NCBI GenBank assembly: GCA_036489315.1
Contig: DASXFZ010000045.1
Span: 1-59,243 of the forward strand
DNA from: Candidatus Cybelea sp.
GTDB taxonomy: Bacteria > Vulcanimicrobiota > Vulcanimicrobiia > Vulcanimicrobiales > Vulcanimicrobiaceae
Length of the DNA stretch: 59,243 nucleotides
Direction: 5' to 3'
Part shown: positions 15,207 through 26,621 of the stretch, one piece after another
Layout of the letters: each line of letters opens with the position of its first letter
Numbering within the stretch: the stretch's first letter is position 1
Translations under genes and position numbers: made by a program
The notes under the pieces: generated by a model
The model's database searches: none
The model's input: only the letters and a program-made list of their open reading frames with translations
What the model was told of the DNA's origin: nothing

Positions 15207-17786
15207 TTAGAGCTCGACGCTGATGTGATTGCCGCAGTTGGGAATGTGCTTCATGCGCATGCGGGCGGCCAACTGTTGGACGATGAACAGCCCCCGTCCC
15301 AGCTCGGCGAAGTCGTCATCGGGCAAGTGCGCCTGCGTTAGACTGAAGGCCGAGCCGGAGTCGATGACGTGCAGGGTGGCGGACTCGCCGCCGGCGTCGA
15401 ACGAAACCTCGACCGGACCAGGAGCGTGGCGAACGACGTTACCGAGCAGCTCGCCGAAGACCAGCTCCGTCCGATCGACGAGGTCGTCGTCCTGCCCAGC
15501 TTGATGGAGAAACTGGACGAATTGCGCTCGCGCGTCAACCGCCGCCCGCGCATCCTCCGCGGCGAACGTCCAGGCCGGCGGCCGGCCGATCGACACGCTC
15601 AGAATCGCAACGTCATCGTGAACGTGTGGCGGCAAGCACGCGCGCGCGACGAGCTTTGCGGGAGCAACCGAGGCGGACAGAACGCCGCTGTTAACGACCT
15701 CGCGCAGCAAGCGCTCCCCCTCGCTCAAGTTGCGCGTCGCTTCGATCAGCCCATCGGTGAAGAGCATGATCACGTCGCCGTCACGCAATTCCATCGAGAC
15801 GCTTTTCTCGGCCGCTGCGAAGCTGCGCAGGCCCAGCGGAAGTCCCGAAGCCTGCAGTTCGATCGACGCGCCGTCTCTCCAAAGCAGCGGCCGCGGATGT
15901 CCGGCGTTGGCGAAGCGGATCGTGCGCCGATCGGGGCTGACGATCGCCACAAAGGCCGTGACGATCGCATCCGGGTAGCGCTTTCGCAAAAACCACTCCG
16001 CCGAATCGAGAATCTTGGTGGGGTCGCTCTCGTGCAGCGGCGCCATGCCCATCGCGTGTCTAACCTTGCTCATTATTGCGGCGGCCTGGATTCCGCGGCC
16101 GGTTACGTCGCCGACGCTCACCACGACCGAACCGTCATCGAGTTCGATCGCGTCGTACCAATCGCCGCCGACGTCGCCTTCGTCGCCTGCAGGCGAATAA
16201 ACGGCGTCAAACCGCAAATTCTCAACTCGTGGTATCAACGTCGGAAGAGATGCCTGCTGGAGCGTCGTCGCGATCTTACGTTCGCGCTCGAGCGTTTCGA
16301 CCTGCTCGACCGCCACCGAGGCGCGCGCCGCTATCTCTTCGAGCAGCACGACGTCGTCGGGCTCAAATGGCCGGTCGGAATAGTATGCGACCAGCGCGCC
16401 GTACGTCGTCTTACCCGCGTAGAGCGGAACGATCACGCTCGACCTCACCGAAAGCGCATCGATCTCGTCGGAAAGGTATGGCCAGGCGCGCTCTCGCATG
16501 AAGCCCGGCTGCTCGTCACGGAATACGACGGTCTCTCGCCGTCTCAGCCGCTCGACAAGGTCGCGCTCCGGCGCGAGGCGCAGGATGCGCTTCCCCCGCA
16601 GCGCCGCGACGATCGCGTTGACCTTGGGCTTGCGATGCACCATGACTTCGGTACGCAGCGCGTCGTCCCGCACGCGAAGGATCGCGCCGGCGTCGGCAAT
16701 TTCGAGCGCGATCATCTTTGCGACGCGGCTCATCGCCTTCCAGGGAGCCGGACTCTCGAAGAACAGCTTGTTGACGCGACTGGTAAAGCGCAGCTGCTCG
16801 GCGATACGCCGTTCGGCCTTGAGCATACGGGTGTTTGCGATCGCGGTCGCGGCGCGCGTAGCGATCGCGCCGGCGATTTCGAGGTCGCTTCCATCGAAAA
16901 GGCGCCCGGATTCGGCCGAGATCATCGTCAGCGCCCCTAACACCTTGCCTTCGAGCGTTGCCAAAGGGATGATCATGCACGAGCGCATTTCCAGCGAGCG
17001 CAGCAGGCGCAGGTGTTCCTCGTCACGCGCACCCGCCACGAGCTGATCGTCGGTTATGCGCTCGAAGAGCGCAGGCCGGTTCTCCTCGATCGAAGCAAAC
17101 AGCGCATCGCCGGGGCGAGGTGGATAGCGATCGCGATATTGCTGCACGAATACGACGCGATCCCGATCGCGATGTTCGAAGGCAATCGTATCGAACGCGT
17201 CGCCCTCGGCTAACGTCACGAAACACCAGTCGGCAAAACGCTCGATCGCCACACGCGCCAACGCCTTACATATCTCGTCGGCTTCGCTGGGGGCGGCCAG
17301 CACGTTGCCCGCCTGAACCATGAAGCTCAAACTATCGCGCGCCCGCCTCTGCGCGTCGACGTCGGTTGCCGTACCGATCCACCGCGAGACCTTGCCGTCC
17401 TGCGCGAAGAGCGGGACGGCACGGCAGAGAAACCAGCGATAACCGCCGTCGGCGCCGCGACGCAGACGAAACTCTCCTTCGTACGGAGTGCCCGACTCGA
17501 TCGCTTCGGTCCACCGGTTCCACGTTTCGTCGACGTCGTCGCCGTGCACGATGCCGACATACTCTCCGCGGCGGCGGAATTCGTCGAGGTCGACCCCGGT
17601 GTAGTCGATCCAGCGCTGATTGAAGTAATCGATCTTTCCGTCGCCGCCGGCCGTCCAGACCAACTGCGGCATAGCCTCGGCGATCGTTCGGAAATCGTCG
17701 CGCAAACGCTCGGCCGCGAGCAGCGCATCGGACGTCGTCCCGGTCGTCGCTCGTTGGCCGGAGCCGGCCCGCTTGCGCTCAGTCAT
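15207..17786 (-). CDS. PAS-GAF-GAF-PP2C (SpoIIE/RsbU) phosphatase with C-terminal HATPase
   Basis: 859 residues, cytoplasmic, with no membrane segment. Order: PAS with PAC-like end (about 30-150; AEAMPQLVWTAGGDGKIDYF, YRWFLCRAVPLF), GAF 1 (about 160-320), GAF 2 (about 330-500), SpoIIE/PP2C phosphatase (about 510-725; AGDEGDVGGDWYDAIELDDG, VGDVTGRGIQAA, FANAGHPRPLL, LFTDGLIEA), and a GHKL HATPase_c2 (about 735-859; ELVFGELLGNVVRHAPG, then GRGLFIVQQLA). The phosphatase and anti-sigma-kinase halves of a partner-switching module are thus in one chain. In known systems an RsbU-type phosphatase acts on a phosphorylated STAS anti-antagonist and the HATPase phosphorylates or binds it. No STAS or sigma gene is in this window. 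It is last in a run after an MFS transporter and a phosphoesterase, whose gene overlaps this start by 8 bp. Confidence 0.93.
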   Translation of the reverse strand: MTERKRAGSGQRATTGTTSDALLAAERLRDDFRTIAEAMPQLVWTAGGDGKIDYFNQRWIDYTGVDLDEFRRRGEYVGIVHGDDVDETWNRWTEAIESGTPYEGEFRLRRGADGGYRWFLCRAVPLFAQDGKVSRWIGTATDVDAQRRARDSLSFMVQAGNVLAAPSEADEICKALARVAIERFADWCFVTLAEGDAFDTIAFEHRDRDRVVFVQQYRDRYPPRPGDALFASIEENRPALFERITDDQLVAGARDEEHLRLLRSLEMRSCMIIPLATLEGKVLGALTMISAESGRLFDGSDLEIAGAIATRAATAIANTRMLKAERRIAEQLRFTSRVNKLFFESPAPWKAMSRVAKMIALEIADAGAILRVRDDALRTEVMVHRKPKVNAIVAALRGKRILRLAPERDLVERLRRRETVVFRDEQPGFMRERAWPYLSDEIDALSVRSSVIVPLYAGKTTYGALVAYYSDRPFEPDDVVLLEEIAARASVAVEQVETLERERKIATTLQQASLPTLIPRVENLRFDAVYSPAGDEGDVGGDWYDAIELDDGSVVVSVGDVTGRGIQAAAIMSKVRHAMGMAPLHESDPTKILDSAEWFLRKRYPDAIVTAFVAIVSPDRRTIRFANAGHPRPLLWRDGASIELQASGLPLGLRSFAAAEKSVSMELRDGDVIMLFTDGLIEATRNLSEGERLLREVVNSGVLSASVAPAKLVARACLPPHVHDDVAILSVSIGRPPAWTFAAEDARAAVDARAQFVQFLHQAGQDDDLVDRTELVFGELLGNVVRHAPGPVEVSFDAGGESATLHVIDSGSAFSLTQAHLPDDDFAELGRGLFIVQQLAARMRMKHIPNCGNHISVEL

Positions 17787-19157: not shown

Positions 19158-20366
19158 TCACGTCCTGGCCTGTACCGGGTCTTTCCCAAAAATGAAGAAG
19201 GGGATCGCTGCAACCTGCAGGAGCATCGAGAACGCAATGAGCGCGGTGATCGATCGGTCGAGGAGGATGCCGCTGACGACGCTGCCTGCAAACCACGCGA
19301 CGCCGAACGCAAGGTCGTAGAGGCCGAAGACGGTCGCTTTCTTTCGTCGCGCCAGTACGGTGGCGACCAGCGCCAGCAAGAGCGCGTCCTGCACGGCGGT
19401 ACCGACACCCCATACCGTCGCCCCGGCAACGGCGAGCGAGCCTCGTCCCAGAAATGCCAGCGGGACGGCCGCCGCGGTTACCGCCAGCGCGACGGCGATT
19501 ACCGGTTTGCCGAAGCGGTCGAAGAGATGCCCGGCGACCGGAGAGACGACCGCGCCAACGGCCATCGCGAGTGCAAAGGCGACGGAAATCGCCGCGACCG
19601 GCATGATCCCGGCCGTCGAAAAATGATAGGAAATCAGAGCGAAATCGACGTAGCCGGCGGCAAAGAGCGCGCCTCCGGCGGCGTAGCGTAGCAGCGTGGC
19701 GCGATCGCCGGCCGACGAACCCTGCGGTTCGGGCTCGTCATGAGGAACGAGCCGGCTTCCCCGCGACGCTGCAACGCCAAGGGCCGCGAGTGTAAGCAAT
19801 GCGGGAACGATCAGCACGCCGAACCCGGTTCGATACCCCCCGCGCGTCACCGCATAGGCGACGATGAGCGGACCTGCGGTCGCTCCGATCTGATCGAGCA
19901 ATTCATTCAGCCCGAAGACGCGGCCGCGGCCGAGCCGGCGGCCGGCCTCCGAAAGTATCACCGCGGTAACCGGTTTTCGGATACCTCGCCCGATGCGCTC
20001 GCCCACGAGCAGGCCCGCGGCGGCCGGCCAACTCCCTGCAAAAGCAAGCGCCGGAACGCACAGCATGTTGATCGCGTAGCCGACCCAGACATTGATCCAG
20101 TAGCGTCCGGTACGATCTGCCACGGCACCGCTGACCGAGCGGATGAGATAACCGGCCAGCTCTCCGCCTCCGGCGACCGCACCGACCATTGCACCGTTGG
20201 CGCCGAGGTGTCCCAAGAAGGCACCGGACACGCCGCGTGCTCCCTCGTACGTCATGTCTGCGAAGAGATTGACGATACCGAGTGCGACGACGAATCGCAG
20301 CGCGCCGCGCAGCTCGTTCTTGTTCAAGCCGTGCGTCTTGCACCCGCATGAGATAATCTCTTGCAT
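19158..20366 (-). CDS. MFS transporter
   Basis: 402 residues from ATG 20366, with about 12 hydrophobic segments. Typical MFS loop motifs are AVADRTGRYWINVW and GERIGRGIRKPVTAVILSEA in the N-half, and a matching VSPVAGHLFDRFGKPV in the C-half. The GIGRGIRKP pattern resembles the group of transporters annotated as MFS with no fixed substrate; drug or metabolite efflux is possible. The chosen ATG lies inside the palindrome TTGCATGCAA and overlaps the ATG of the divergent nuclease-helicase by two bases. An internal TTG at codon 16 (NKNELRG follows) is the alternative start. It leads a run with the phosphoesterase and the PAS-PP2C protein. Confidence 0.88.
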   Translation of the reverse strand: MQEIISCGCKTHGLNKNELRGALRFVVALGIVNLFADMTYEGARGVSGAFLGHLGANGAMVGAVAGGGELAGYLIRSVSGAVADRTGRYWINVWVGYAINMLCVPALAFAGSWPAAAGLLVGERIGRGIRKPVTAVILSEAGRRLGRGRVFGLNELLDQIGATAGPLIVAYAVTRGGYRTGFGVLIVPALLTLAALGVAASRGSRLVPHDEPEPQGSSAGDRATLLRYAAGGALFAAGYVDFALISYHFSTAGIMPVAAISVAFALAMAVGAVVSPVAGHLFDRFGKPVIAVALAVTAAAVPLAFLGRGSLAVAGATVWGVGTAVQDALLLALVATVLARRKKATVFGLYDLAFGVAWFAGSVVSGILLDRSITALIAFSMLLQVAAIPFFIFGKDPVQART

Positions 20367-23300
20367 GCAACGCCTCGACGGGCGGTTCATTTACTCTGCA
20401 AGCGATCTCAACGACTACCTCGAGTGCAAGCGGTTGACCGAGCTCGAAGCACTCGTGGCGCGCAAACGCCTGCGGCGCCCGGATGACGATGACGAGCGCT
20501 CTGCGCTGGTTCGCCGCAAGGGGGACGAGCACGAACGCCGGCACCTGGCCGGCTTGCTGGAGCGTTATCCGGGCGAGGTCGTTGAGTTCGAACGCTCCGA
20601 AGCAGGCATCGAAGCCTACCATCAAGCCGAGCGGCGGACGCTCGAAGAGATGCGCAAAGGTAAGCGCGTCATCTACCAGGCGACGTTCTTTGACGGCCTG
20701 TTCATCGGCCACGCGGACTTCTTACGCCGCGTTTCGACACCGTCGGATCTAGGCGCTTACGGCTACGAGGTCGTCGACACGAAGTTGGCGCTGGCACCCA
20801 AAGCCTACTACTTGGTGCAGCTCTGTAATTACAGCGAGCATCTCGCGCGACTACAGGGGCACATCCCGGAATTCGGCCACGTCGTTTTCGGTGATGGCAC
20901 CGAAGATCGCTTCCGCATCAACGACTACATGGCGTATTACCGCCACCTCAAACATGCGTTTTTAGATTTTGCCGGCGACCCGGCCCTCGAGCAAATCGAG
21001 CTGCCCCGGCAGTATCCCCACAGATGCCGGCACTGCTCGGACTGCGCGTGGAGACGCGCGTGCGCGGCGCAACGCGAGAGCGACGACCATCTAAGCCTCG
21101 TGGCCTGGATGCGCCGCGACCAGATCGCTAAGTTCGAACACAACGGCATCACGCGAGTTTCCGAGCTCGCGACGGCCACCGGCGAGCGGCGCCCCACGGG
21201 GATGAATCCCGAAACCTTTATCAAGCTGCGGCGGCAGGCGGAGCTTCAGGTACGCGGCCGTGAAAGCCGCCGCCCGATCTACGAACTGCTCGAGCACGAG
21301 CCTCCGCTCGGCTTCTCGCTGCTCCCCCCGCCGTCAGCAGGTGACGTCTTCTTCGATATGGAGGGTGACCCACTTTACGAGCCCGGCCGCGGCCTCGAAT
21401 ACCTTTTCGGCTGCTGGATGCCCGACGACGAACACCCGTTTCGAGCGTTCTGGGGAACCACGCGCGCCGACGAGAGAGTCGCGTTCGAGTCCTTCATCGA
21501 ATTCCTAATGGAGCGCCGCGCGCGCTACCCATCGCTGCACGTCTACCATTATGCGAACTACGAAAAGTCGGCGCTCCGGCGACTCGCGCAAGAGCACCGC
21601 ACCAAGGAGAACGAAGTCGACGTTCTGCTGCGCGAGGGCGTGCTCGTCGACCTCTATGCGGTCGTCCGCCAATCTCTGGTCATCTCGGAGGACGGCTACG
21701 GCTTAAAGAAACTCGAGCGCTTTTACGATCTCACCCGTGAGACCGAAGTCCGCAAGGGTGACGACTCAATCGTCATGTTCGAGCGCTGGATGCTCGAAAA
21801 GGATCGACGCATCCTCGACGATATCGAAGCGTACAACCGCGACGACTGCCGGTCGACCTTTCTCCTGCGCGAGTGGTTGCTGGCACGCCGGCTGGAGGCC
21901 GCGGCTGCGTTCGGGATCAGCTTCCCGTTCTACGAGCATCGCTCGAGCACGCCGAGCCTCAAGACGCAAGAGGAGGAGAGCCGGCGCAGCGATCTCGAGC
22001 GGCGAATCCTCGAAAACGTGCTGTCGCCGAAGTCCGAAGAAGAATACGAGCGCATGAGCGATGACCGTCGCGCTCGCTACCTAATCGGCGGTCTGCTGGC
22101 GTACCACACGCGGGAAGCAAAACCGCAGTGGTGGGCGTACTTCGACCGCTGCGAGAACATCGACGACCTCCTCGAGTTCGATCGCGAGCCGATCGCCGGA
22201 CTACGGCTGTGCGAACACATCCCCGCAAAAGAGATCAAGCGCAGTAAGATCTACACGTACGCGTTTCCCGAACAGCATCACAAGATGGGGCCGGGTAACG
22301 CGGAGAATCCTCGCACGCGCAAGAGCGTCGCGATCGTCTCGATCGACGACGAGCGCAACCTGCTGGAGCTGCGCACCGGCGCCTCGATCGAGGACGCGCG
22401 CGCGATCGCGGAGCTGATTCCGCCCCGCCCGCCTACGGCCAAGCCGCAACGCGACGCGATCGAACGCATCGCAAAATCCTTTCTGGCCGGCGACCTTTCG
22501 CGACGCTATCCGTGCGCAAACGATCTGCTTTTGCGTCGGCCTCCGCGGCTTGCCGGCGGCGCCCGCGGGCCGATTCAGCCGGCGGAGGTCGACGCGGCCG
22601 GCATTACCAAAATCGCGGCCGCGCTCGAGGGCAGCTATCTGTTCGTTCAGGGGCCGCCCGGCAGCGGGAAGAGCACCTATGGCTCCAGCGTGATCTGCGA
22701 CCTGCTAGCTGCGGGCAAGCGCGTCGCGGTCACCAGCACGAGTCATGCCGCGATCCATAACCTGCTGCACAAGGTCGAATCGAGCATGCAGGAGCGGGGC
22801 CTCGGCTTTCGCGGCCGGTACAAGCATTCGTCCTCCAGCGACGGCTCCGAATTCCGTTCGAAGCTTCGCATCGCGATGATCGACTCGGTCGATACGAACG
22901 ATGGCTTCGTCGGCGAAGGCTACGACCTCGCCGGCGGCACGGCATGGCTGCTGGCACGTGAAGAACTCGAAGGACAGTTCGACTATCTTTTCATCGACGA
23001 AGCGGGGCAAGTCGCGCTCGCCGACGCCCTTGCGCTCTCGCTGTGCGCGCGCAACGTCGTCTTGCTCGGGGATCCCTCGCAGCTCGCTCAAGTCAGCCAG
23101 GGGAGCCACGTACTGCACGTCGGCGACTCGGCCCTCAAGCATCTGCTCGCCGCCGACCGAACCGTCCCGAAGGATCGCGGAATATTCTTGGATGTCAGCT
23201 ACCGGATGGAGTCCGATATCTGCGCGTTCGTTTCCGACGCGATGTATGAAGGCCGCCTGCACCCGTCGCCCGCAGCGGCGCAGCATCACGTGGCGATGGG

Positions 23301-23772
23301 AGACCGGCGCCTCGCCGGCCTTTATTTCGCACCGGTCGAACATTCCGGCAACAGTTCCAGCTCGGTCGAGGAGGCCGCGGAGGTCGTTGCGCGGATCTCG
23401 CGACTGGCTGCCTACGAGCGGGATATCATCGTCGTTACGCCCTACAACGCGCAACGCCGTCTGATCGCGAGCAAGCTGGCGGAGGCCGGACACAATTACG
23501 TTCGCGTCGGCACCGTCGACAAGTTCCAGGGGCAGGAGGCCGCGGTGGTCTTCTATTCGATGGCGACCTCCAGCGGTGAGGAGATGCCGCGGGATATGGA
23601 GTTCCTTTTCGAGCGAAATCGGTTCAACGTCGCGATATCGCGGGCGCGCGCGGCGAGCGTTTTGGTTTGTAACCCGAGGCTGCTCGACGTCTCGTGCCGC
23701 ACGCCGGCCGAGATGGCGCTGGTAAATCTGCTCTGCGCTTTCAAGGAGCGCGCCGCGGCCGCCGATTGGTGA
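20365..23772 (+). CDS. TM0106-type RecB-like nuclease / RNase H-fold exonuclease / superfamily 1 helicase fusion
   Basis: 1135 residues from ATG 20365. Module 1 (1-235): a RecB/Cas4-like PD-(D/E)xK nuclease, with GHADFL and VVDTKLA as active-site segments and a C-terminal cysteine cluster HRCRHCSDCAWRRAC that, with the Cys near residue 19, could hold an Fe-S cluster. Module 2 (about 325-510): RNase H-like 3'-5' exonuclease with DVFFDMEGDP and YNRDDCRST. Module 3 (about 745-1135): UPF1/Dna2-like helicase with Walker A GPPGSGKST (about 762-770), Walker B DYLFIDEAGQ, then VSYRME, VDKFQGQEA and NVAISRARA. The architecture occurs in bacterial TM0106-family proteins. DNA end processing, repair or defence are all possible. 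Divergent from MFS; convergent with a DEDDh exonuclease. Confidence 0.92.
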   Translation: MQRLDGRFIYSASDLNDYLECKRLTELEALVARKRLRRPDDDDERSALVRRKGDEHERRHLAGLLERYPGEVVEFERSEAGIEAYHQAERRTLEEMRKGKRVIYQATFFDGLFIGHADFLRRVSTPSDLGAYGYEVVDTKLALAPKAYYLVQLCNYSEHLARLQGHIPEFGHVVFGDGTEDRFRINDYMAYYRHLKHAFLDFAGDPALEQIELPRQYPHRCRHCSDCAWRRACAAQRESDDHLSLVAWMRRDQIAKFEHNGITRVSELATATGERRPTGMNPETFIKLRRQAELQVRGRESRRPIYELLEHEPPLGFSLLPPPSAGDVFFDMEGDPLYEPGRGLEYLFGCWMPDDEHPFRAFWGTTRADERVAFESFIEFLMERRARYPSLHVYHYANYEKSALRRLAQEHRTKENEVDVLLREGVLVDLYAVVRQSLVISEDGYGLKKLERFYDLTRETEVRKGDDSIVMFERWMLEKDRRILDDIEAYNRDDCRSTFLLREWLLARRLEAAAAFGISFPFYEHRSSTPSLKTQEEESRRSDLERRILENVLSPKSEEEYERMSDDRRARYLIGGLLAYHTREAKPQWWAYFDRCENIDDLLEFDREPIAGLRLCEHIPAKEIKRSKIYTYAFPEQHHKMGPGNAENPRTRKSVAIVSIDDERNLLELRTGASIEDARAIAELIPPRPPTAKPQRDAIERIAKSFLAGDLSRRYPCANDLLLRRPPRLAGGARGPIQPAEVDAAGITKIAAALEGSYLFVQGPPGSGKSTYGSSVICDLLAAGKRVAVTSTSHAAIHNLLHKVESSMQERGLGFRGRYKHSSSSDGSEFRSKLRIAMIDSVDTNDGFVGEGYDLAGGTAWLLAREELEGQFDYLFIDEAGQVALADALALSLCARNVVLLGDPSQLAQVSQGSHVLHVGDSALKHLLAADRTVPKDRGIFLDVSYRMESDICAFVSDAMYEGRLHPSPAAAQHHVAMGDRRLAGLYFAPVEHSGNSSSSVEEAAEVVARISRLAAYERDIIVVTPYNAQRRLIASKLAEAGHNYVRVGTVDKFQGQEAAVVFYSMATSSGEEMPRDMEFLFERNRFNVAISRARAASVLVCNPRLLDVSCRTPAEMALVNLLCAFKERAAAADW

Positions 23773-24341
23773 ACGGGCCCAACGTTCACGAAGGCCGTTT
23801 CGGCCAGAAAATGGGCCCACGCTTCACCGCCGCGGTAAGCTCCGAAGCGCCGCCGGCAAGCGATCAAGACGTGAGCGCTGACGAGCGCATCGCTCAGTGC
23901 CCGGTGGGCTTCAAATCGCTCGCCGGCGGCGCGGTCGATAGCGAGGAAACGGCGTAGCGTCTGGTTCTTGTGATTTGGCGCTTCGGGAAAGAGCGCTCGC
24001 GCGAGGCGCATCGTGCAGAGTCCGCGCGTTGCAACCGACGGGCCGACGAAGGAGAGATCGAAGTTGGCGCAATGCGCGGCGACGGTGCGGCCGCGACACC
24101 ATCGCCGGACGGACTGCAGCGCCCAGGCAGCGCTCGGCGCACGCGCGACCATCTCGTCGGAGATGCCGTGCAGGCCCGTTGCAATCGGCGGAATCGGTAT
24201 TCCGGGGTTCACGAGGGTCGCCCATCGGCCGACGATTCGGTCGTACTCGACGATAATGCAGGCAATCTCGACGATACGATCCTGCGCCGGGCGCAAGCCG
24301 GTCGTCTCGACGTCGATTACGCAGTAGCGTTCCGGAAGCAT
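23553..24341 (-). CDS. DEDDh 3'-5' exonuclease (DnaQ/PolC-epsilon-like)
   Basis: 262 residues. The exonuclease motifs are Exo I VIDVETTGL (about 8-16), Exo II AAHCANFDLSFV (about 90-102), and Exo III with HRALSDALVSAHVL (about 145-158), giving the DEDDh set. The fold is complete by about residue 180. The remaining 80 residues are Ser/Arg/Ala-rich with no domain pattern and are read in antisense to the last 220 bp of the nuclease-helicase gene, because no stop is met before 23553. Either the overlap is genuine or the natural stop was lost. Function: proofreading-type or repair exonuclease on DNA or RNA ends. Its position facing another nuclease may be functional or chance. Confidence 0.88.
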   Translation of the reverse strand: MLPERYCVIDVETTGLRPAQDRIVEIACIIVEYDRIVGRWATLVNPGIPIPPIATGLHGISDEMVARAPSAAWALQSVRRWCRGRTVAAHCANFDLSFVGPSVATRGLCTMRLARALFPEAPNHKNQTLRRFLAIDRAAGERFEAHRALSDALVSAHVLIACRRRFGAYRGGEAWAHFLAETAFVNVGPVHQSAAAARSLKAQSRFTSAISAGVRHETSSSLGLQTKTLAARARDIATLNRFRSKRNSISRGISSPLEVAIE

Positions 24342-24389: not shown

Positions 24390-25643
24390 CTAGGGCGACG
24401 GCAACGGCAAGAAAGGATCGAACCCGCCGGAGGCGAGCGCGTACCACGCCGTAGCGCCGACCTGCGGCGATGCGAAATATTTGTCGCCGTCGCAATCGCT
24501 CAAGCCATTCTTGGAGGCTGCGATGATGCCGCGGCCGTCGCCATTGAGCCCGTTTTGCTGCGCGTACGCGATATCCGCGAGATACGTCTGCGCCTGCGAC
24601 CGGTCGCCTCGGGCAGCGCGCAACTTCAGCGCTCCGGCGAGATGAGCGGTTCCCTCGAACCACACTCCCGAGCGGTCGCCGCTGCAGAAGCTGACGCCGT
24701 CGAAGCCGCCCTTACCTACCGCGAGATGCGTGACGTCCCAGCTCGGAGCGGCGGCCCAGTGAGAATTTTCGAACGCGAGATAGCTCCATGAGTTAACATC
24801 CTCGGGCCGAAACGACTTGTTCGGGGTAACGCCGTCGTTGCCGGTGCCGACGTAAAATCGGCCGTCACGCGCATCCCACATCGAGGCGACGAACCGCTCG
24901 GCCCAGCGCGCCTTTGCGTCCCATTTCCGCTCGCCGGTTCGGCTGGCAAGCATCTCGAAGAACGCGTAAATGTCGATGTTGTGTTCCGTCGACTTCCACT
25001 CAATCTTCTTACCGCGTGCGGTGTAGCCCCCGGTGTAGCCGCCGCTGCCGCGAGTATCGTGCGCGTTGCGCGCAAGCCACGCCGCGATCGCAGCAGCGCC
25101 CCGCAAATACCGCGCCTCGCCCGTCCTTACGTACAGCTGCACGAGCGCTTGCCCGACCCAGGCCATGTTGCCGGCATCGCTGCTGCCGTCGTCGATCTTG
25201 ATGTCTTGTGGGCTCCGCAGCGGCCGCGGCGCGTAGGCAGCGCGCAGACGTCCGTCGCCGGCCGGGTCGTGCGCCTGTACGAAGAGAAAGGCGCTGCCGA
25301 CGATTTTCGAGCGAGACACGCCGTCATCGGTCCCCTCGGCCAGCATCGCATCGACGAAGAGCGCATCGTCGTAGGTCACCGCATCGGTGAAATGCCGCAA
25401 TGGGCCGCCGTCGAAGCTCCGGACGAGGCGTATCGCCGCACCCTTGGCGTATCTGTCCATCATGAAGCGCAAGAACACATACGCCTTAGCCACACTCCCG
25501 TTCGAACGTTGCGCGCGCACGCCCGGCGCGGCGGGCAGCGGGTCCGCACCGCCCGGCTGCCGGCCGCAGCCGGCCGCCAGCGCGAGGCCTACGACGACAA
25601 TTCGAAAGCCGGCGTGCATAGCGGCGAGGTCCGAGAGCTTCAC
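24390..25643 (-). CDS. Lipoprotein with six-hairpin glycosidase-like domain
   Basis: 417 residues from GTG 25643, chosen because AAGGAGAGGAGC lies just upstream; ATG 25619 (MHAGFRIV) is an alternative eight residues shorter. A signal peptide ends in ALAAGC (lipobox). The mature protein has repeated helical hairpins (NMAWVGQALVQLYVRTGEARYL, IYAFFEMLASRTGERKWD, SYLAFENSHWAAAP), consistent with an (alpha/alpha)6 barrel as in GH8/GH9/GH88-type or related hydrolases. Catalytic acids cannot be assigned by eye. It lies on the outer surface or in the periplasm. The gene is 48 bp from the exonuclease start and divergent from the BrkB gene (150-bp spacer, no recognisable promoter). Confidence 0.75.
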   Translation of the reverse strand: MKLSDLAAMHAGFRIVVVGLALAAGCGRQPGGADPLPAAPGVRAQRSNGSVAKAYVFLRFMMDRYAKGAAIRLVRSFDGGPLRHFTDAVTYDDALFVDAMLAEGTDDGVSRSKIVGSAFLFVQAHDPAGDGRLRAAYAPRPLRSPQDIKIDDGSSDAGNMAWVGQALVQLYVRTGEARYLRGAAAIAAWLARNAHDTRGSGGYTGGYTARGKKIEWKSTEHNIDIYAFFEMLASRTGERKWDAKARWAERFVASMWDARDGRFYVGTGNDGVTPNKSFRPEDVNSWSYLAFENSHWAAAPSWDVTHLAVGKGGFDGVSFCSGDRSGVWFEGTAHLAGALKLRAARGDRSQAQTYLADIAYAQQNGLNGDGRGIIAASKNGLSDCDGDKYFASPQVGATAWYALASGGFDPFLPLPSP

Positions 25644-25793
25644 GCTCCTCTCCTTCACGATTTCTTCATGCCTGCGCCCTACCATCGGCGATACGGTCGA
25701 CGTGCCGCGCTGGGGTAAGGTGGCAGTGTCTGGGGGATACCGCTCGAAGGCCGCGGCACTCGATCGTTCCTTTTCCGGCAGAAGTGCGCCTCT

Positions 25794-26621
25794 GTGACGC
25801 GGTCGCTGCCGTTCCGTTTGGCGGTGCAAACGTGGACGAACTACCAACGCCACAACGCGCAATGGCTGGCCGCCGCGCTCGCCTATTTTGCCGCTTTCGC
25901 GGTCGCGCCGCTGATCATCGTCGTCGTTGCGATCGCCGGCCTCTTCATTCACTCTCACCAGAGTGCGCTTAACGCGATTTACGAGCGTATACCGGGACCC
26001 GGCACGCTCGCGGTGCGTCAGATCGTGGCTTCCACGCTGGACCAGCAGCGTCATTCCGTTATCGCGCAGATCGCCGGCTGGGCGCTCTTCGTCGTAGCGG
26101 CCATCGGGCTATTTAACGCACTCCAGTTTGCGTTGAACAGCGTTTGGGAGGTCGCTCCGAAAAGACTCGGCATCGGGCAAACGATCAAAGAACGCGCCCT
26201 CGTCTTTGCGATGATGCTGGCACTCGCGCTGCTGCTGATGCTTTCGGTCCTGGCAAATACCGCGCTCGCCGTCGCATCGAGTCACTTCGGCCTCTCGATC
26301 GCGGGGCCGGCCGCGCTTGCGAAGCCGGCAGATTTCGTACTTTCGGCAGCGCTCAGCTGGCTGTTCTTCGTCCTGCTTTTCAAGTATTTACCCGACGCGC
26401 GAGTTGCGTGGCGCGACGTGTGGCTGGGCGGCGGCTTGACGGCGGTTCTCTTCGTCGCCGGACAGCTCTTACTCGGGTGGTACCTGAGCGGCGCCGGCGT
26501 GAGCTCGGCGTATGGCGCCTTCGGTTCGCTCGTGGTCTTTCTGCTTTGGGCGAACTATTCGTCGCAGATTCTGCTCCTCGGTGCGGAGTTCACGCACGCT
26601 TATTCGCAACGCGAACGCTAA
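25794..26621 (+). CDS. YihY/BrkB-family inner-membrane protein
   Basis: 275 residues, about six hydrophobic segments. Conserved blocks of the family: ALAYFAAFAVAPLIIVVVAI, GLFNALQFALNSVWEV, VWLGGGLTAVLFVAGQLLLG and GAFGSLVVFLLWANYSSQILLLGAE. The family was once called RNase BN by error; its true function is unknown, possibly envelope transport. GTG 25794 has no clear Shine-Dalgarno but opens the conserved part directly. The stop lies only five bases from the stop of the convergent lipoprotein gene, with no hairpin between. Confidence 0.92.
   Translation: MTRSLPFRLAVQTWTNYQRHNAQWLAAALAYFAAFAVAPLIIVVVAIAGLFIHSHQSALNAIYERIPGPGTLAVRQIVASTLDQQRHSVIAQIAGWALFVVAAIGLFNALQFALNSVWEVAPKRLGIGQTIKERALVFAMMLALALLLMLSVLANTALAVASSHFGLSIAGPAALAKPADFVLSAALSWLFFVLLFKYLPDARVAWRDVWLGGGLTAVLFVAGQLLLGWYLSGAGVSSAYGAFGSLVVFLLWANYSSQILLLGAEFTHAYSQRER

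Follow-up and report, generated by a model that had tools for sequence, protein, structure and literature searches.

Genes and features at the locus

The present study covers the whole of contig DASXFZ010000045.1 from Candidatus Cybelea sp. (59,243 nt; hereafter, the window). It belongs to a 3.09-Mb draft assembly of 64 contigs, the closest named relatives of which are Candidatus Eremiobacterota assemblies. An exonuclease ORF and a helicase ORF converge tail to tail in the window and share 220 bp (23553-23772). The features are as follows.

20197..23772, plus strand: helicase ORF, 1191 aa counted from TTG
20365..23772, plus strand: TM0106-type RecB-like nuclease (RNase_H_2) fused to an SF1 helicase (AAA_11/AAA_12); TIGR03491, PF13482, PF13087
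23553..24341, minus strand: exonuclease ORF, 262 aa, ATG start
23773..24341, minus strand: conserved body of the exonuclease, a DEDDh (DnaQ/RNase_T type) 3'-5' exonuclease, about 189 codons
23553..23772, minus strand: putative read-through tail at the exonuclease C-terminus; about 73 codons lying antisense to the 3' end of the helicase gene
23553-23555, minus strand: stop codon TAG of the tail, opposite Phe-Tyr of the helicase motif VFYS
23745..23800, no strand: junction at which the phosphatase gene of relatives is missing; ends of both homologies and a 7-bp inverted repeat
24390-26054: p554, no Pfam family

The exonuclease has 189 codons ahead of the overlap and about 73 inside it. The first-pass annotation had described a frame that stays open for 220 bp into the helicase 3' end and adds about 73 residues without a recognisable domain. 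The ORF coordinates bear this out, and the only Pfam match, to PF00929 (RNase_T; E 4e-24, over the cut-off), is confined to residues 8-159. In an alignment of 26 sequences, D10, E12, and D95 are invariant and H146 and D151 nearly so; we take these to be the D-E-D-H-D residues that give the DEDDh motif its name. The DEDDh domain is thus intact by profile match and alignment, and the exonuclease domain is probably active. The PADLOC output, one DEDDh match and some partial matches to helicases, has no bearing on the overlap.

The helicase protein matches TIGR03491 (E 5.4e-80) as well as PF13482 and PF13087. ATG at 20365 is a likelier start than the listed TTG at 20197. A helicase starting at the TTG would overlap the divergent MFS gene (19158-20390, minus strand) head to head by 194 bp (20197-20390). 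At the other end, the last aligned position of the window helicase is 1186 of 1191, leaving only 5 residues beyond, and the helicases of relatives (n=21) end 0 to 36 codons past their last aligned position. The length of the window helicase is similar to that of its orthologues, as expected of the partner gene in the 3'-end extension class discussed below.

Exonuclease orthologues and the length of the tail

The 189-residue body was used as a query against 18 genomes of the genus. Clear orthologues were present in seven, the window's genome included; three more matches, in G016 and G009, were distant (28-30% identity). Exonuclease lengths in relatives, to which the first-pass annotation had pointed as a check, were informative: in each of the six other same-genus orthologues, codon 190 is the last before a TGA (codon 191), against 262 codons here (the G004 row starts at codon 4 of the query). 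The tail is therefore present in one of the seven genus exonucleases, that of the window. Homology runs to about residue 185, where the aligned ends finish, and the window protein crosses into the helicase gene at codon 190.

A wider search with the window protein covered 60 genomes, 53 of which matched, the window's genome among them. The last ~70 residues matched separately, on the antisense strand of the helicase 3' end, and in the genomes giving such matches an exonuclease of this kind is either lacking or located elsewhere. Matches crossing the junction without stops were found in G005 (query 113-262) and G033 (query 111-262). Neither was accepted as a long exonuclease: the frame in G033 is not that of the exonuclease (offset 2), and the exonuclease query finds nothing in G005. 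For the pre-tail part of the match, shuffled sequences gave a 95th percentile of 40; the G005 score of 44 is marginal beside it, and G033 scores 33.

Gene order and the missing phosphatase gene

In G003, G004, G006, and G009, a single contig carries the exonuclease gene, a PAS-GAF-SpoIIE-HATPase gene of ~670 codons (the phosphatase gene), and the helicase gene on the opposite strand. G014 and G016 have the same order divided over contig ends. The synteny is GYD-p554/GNAT-exonuclease-phosphatase-helicase in relatives versus p554-exonuclease-helicase in the window's genome. In G010 and G011, p554 itself adjoins the helicase gene, with neither the exonuclease nor the phosphatase gene between them. 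In G007 (L142 3483-6959), p554 and the phosphatase gene lie close to the helicase gene, ~1.5 kb separating the latter two, and there is no exonuclease orthologue.

A search of the window's genome for the phosphatase orthologue did not find it, the best match being 33% identical. We rejected relocation of the gene within this genome because only paralogues at 27-45% identity were present. One paralogue, a PAS/SpoIIE phosphatase with 27-31% identity to the missing gene, lies at about 15207-17786 of the window, beyond the helicase gene and a few kb from it.

The 3' end of the helicase gene overlaps other neighbours as well: the phosphatase gene by 31 or 72 bp (five genomes measured), p554 by 12 and 85 bp (two genomes), and the exonuclease gene by 26 bp in G033 and 220 bp in the window. 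At 220 bp, the overlap in the window exceeds the other eight and is of the same kind. The 72-bp overlap occurs in four relatives (L147 7752-7823, L149 493-564, L034 7597-7668, and L035 4834-4905), in which the last helicase codons are the antisense of the conserved 3' end of the phosphatase gene. The common helicase C-terminus that results probably arose as a similar by-product.

Phylogeny and the junction

The helicase tree groups the window's genome with G003 and G014 (100/100), and then with G006 and G009, all of which bear the phosphatase gene. G004 and G007, which fall outside that group, likewise have a phosphatase near the helicase. Since the helicase tree nests the window's genome among phosphatase-bearing genomes, loss is favoured, and the phosphatase gene was likely lost in the lineage of the window. 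The direction of change (loss here versus gain in relatives) rests mainly on this tree. In the exonuclease tree, the window's genome is level with G004 and outside the other five, and in the p554 tree it sits on a long branch. The RpoB tree, built from 10 rows of more than 500 residues (matches were found in 11 of the 18 genomes, and G011 was dropped as short), leaves its placement unresolved.

At the junction (23745..23800), exonuclease homology ends near codon 185, and that of the helicase runs out a few codons short of its stop, around which lies the 7-bp inverted repeat. Sequence comparison could not fix the exact breakpoints or microhomology there. The motif GCCTTCG is common to the 3' ends of the exonuclease and phosphatase genes and is only suggestive as a possible trace of a breakpoint. 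A terminator scan of the junction returned no terminator-like sites. A bidirectional terminator was also rejected because 71-nt folds were no better than those of shuffled sequences on either strand (z 0.06 and 0.52). A 46-nt fold gave z -2.14 on the plus strand (7 of 200 shuffles were as good) and z -0.84 on the minus strand, which is nothing firm.

Why the antisense frame is open

The exonuclease and helicase frames are in phase (123:213), in which third positions lie opposite each other. An antisense stop is then possible only where Tyr or a stop follows a T- or C-ending codon, or where His or Gln follows a T-ending one. The 71 helicase residues past the Tyr of VFYS include no Tyr, His, or Gln, while Phe-Tyr in the helicase always yields an antisense stop in the phase of the tail. 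When the helicase 3' end was synonymously recoded, the frame was open in 2000 of 2000 sequences, and in recodings of Phe-Tyr the stop was present in 2000 of 2000. Therefore, once a frame enters from the 3' side, the helicase protein sequence fixes that a tail exists and how long it is.

This antisense frame was scored in 21 other helicases (G016 was left out of this count) and taken as open when no antisense stop fell between Phe-Tyr and the last codon with homology. It is open in 16, and none of them has an exonuclease reading in it. It is closed in G001, G007, G015, G017, and DAHU. Among 45 long ORFs taken from the window by greedy selection, which may include a few false genes, an antisense frame entering the 3' end is open for at least 73 codons in 34 of the 135 combinations of gene and frame, and this particular phase is so in 6 of 45 ORFs. 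The openness of the tail frame is not by itself beyond chance.

Codon use, selection, and predicted structure

The codon score per codon was +0.25 for the exonuclease body and -0.21 for the tail; ten genes, which also trained the score, gave +0.26 to +0.39 in sense and -0.20 to -0.47 in antisense. Codon use is thus gene-like in the body and antisense-like in the tail. The ratio of fourfold-site divergence between the overlap and the region upstream averaged 0.93 in 13 pairs with the window's genome versus 0.89 in 78 pairs without it, a comparison of low power near saturation, as these sites differ by 39-65% between pairs. In the AlphaFold model, block means of pLDDT are 36-71 in the tail and mostly 93 or more in the body. 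Helices are placed at residues 194-213 and 225-250 of the tail with low confidence. Any tail that is made would most likely be tolerated as a poorly ordered appendage with no selected function.

Origin of the overlap

We consider it very probable that the overlap is a lineage-specific 3' extension, namely, a read-through in one genome that followed the disappearance of the phosphatase gene and the native stop, and that the tail has no selected function. The common state among same-genus relatives with the exonuclease is a 190-aa DEDDh exonuclease gene followed by a phosphatase gene converging on the helicase gene. The phosphatase gene is absent from the window's genome, and the native exonuclease stop would have disappeared together with it or afterwards, through either one deletion that removed the stop or a deletion with a later change. 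The exonuclease frame meets the helicase 3' end head-on, stays open across conserved C-terminal residues that include no Tyr, His, or Gln, and ends at the antisense stop set by Phe-Tyr of VFYS. Of the two alternatives raised in the first-pass annotation, a lost stop with the tail read through the neighbour is supported by the six short orthologues and the different 3' neighbour in relatives. The other, a functional overlap that constrains both proteins, received no support: the six same-genus orthologues stop near the position equivalent to 23773, the observation that the first-pass annotation had named as its refutation, the overlap is not conserved, and neither the codon score nor the low-confidence predicted tail supports it.

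A functional overlap would require the 73-residue tail to be useful, for example, by binding the helicase or nucleic acid, with both frames under selection. The open ORF, the intact exonuclease domain, and the weak helices modelled in the tail may be read this way, and the two genes are neighbours in several arrangements across the family, which hints at linked roles. However, none of the six genus orthologues has the tail, the helicase amino acids force the frame open, the codon score is antisense-like, pLDDT is low, and the fourfold sites, which are near saturation and of low power, show no extra synonymous constraint. Such a function is very improbable. It is also doubtful in the extreme that the tail, which is known from one genome, is translated and has been co-opted as a newly overprinted C-terminal extension that might anchor the exonuclease to the helicase.

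An assembly or base-calling error, in which an indel near the exonuclease 3' end masks a nearby stop and no long tail exists, is highly unlikely. The source is a draft in 64 contigs, and a TGA lies one frame over, just past codon 184, at the end of homology. However, the end sequence is not a one-base variant of that in relatives, the whole intergenic stretch is missing with the phosphatase gene, and the helicase frame passes through cleanly. An unlikely alternative is that direct convergence of the exonuclease and helicase genes is older, that the phosphatase gene was inserted in relatives, and that the stop was lost here by a small change. The two genes are directly convergent in G033, which belongs to another genus, and the exonuclease tree does not place the window's genome inside the phosphatase-bearing ones. 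In contrast, the helicase tree groups it with G003 and G014, and G004 and G007, outside that group, still have the phosphatase near the helicase. This alternative concerns history only, and the tail is a read-through under either history.

Comparison with known overlaps

In a 2008 survey in BMC Genomics (PMC2478687), 178 convergent overlaps of >60 bp are described, of which 124 are 3'-end extensions (group iii) and 54 are possibly real; group iii is treated there as misannotations. The overlap in the window resembles group iii in being convergent and >60 bp, with one gene 3'-longer than its orthologues and the length of its partner kept. It differs in that a whole intervening gene is missing, which is more than a frameshift or point mutation of the stop, and in that the ORF is plainly in the sequence. 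An account of the origin of overlaps (PMC2174442) describes stop-codon mutation (SCM) as stop loss with read-through, and gives (123:213) as the least common phase in convergent pairs (18% vs 49% and 33%). The phase here is this least common one, yet it is fully open owing to the helicase residues. The overlap fits the accounts of both papers, with the loss of the intervening gene as an added detail. The gene pop opposite ompA in E. coli O157:H7 (PMC7103648) is likewise an antisense coding overlap; however, pop is a whole embedded gene argued from expression, whereas the present case is a C-terminal extension known from sequence alone. Among the papers searched, we found no report on overlapping genes in Eremiobacterota.

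The overlap is an ordinary kind of genome accident and not a new dual-coding system. It serves as a worked example that long antisense overlaps in GC-rich genomes need comparison before dual-coding claims, since the gene order of relatives and the amino acids of the neighbour together explain the open frame and its exact end. If the tail were used, it would be a new protein extension caught at its start, and co-option, if true, would mean that such an extension arose upon gene loss from the antisense strand of a helicase motif that is itself conserved.

Exonuclease and helicase neighbours recur across the family (loci L170, L171, L172, L150, L036, and L038) in tandem (G021, G034, and the contig of L038), divergent (G022), convergent (G033), and helicase-first (the contig of L036) arrangements. 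At ten family loci with an exonuclease homologue, a helicase was nearby in three and absent nearby in seven. The link between the two genes is partial but recurrent, and they might share a role.
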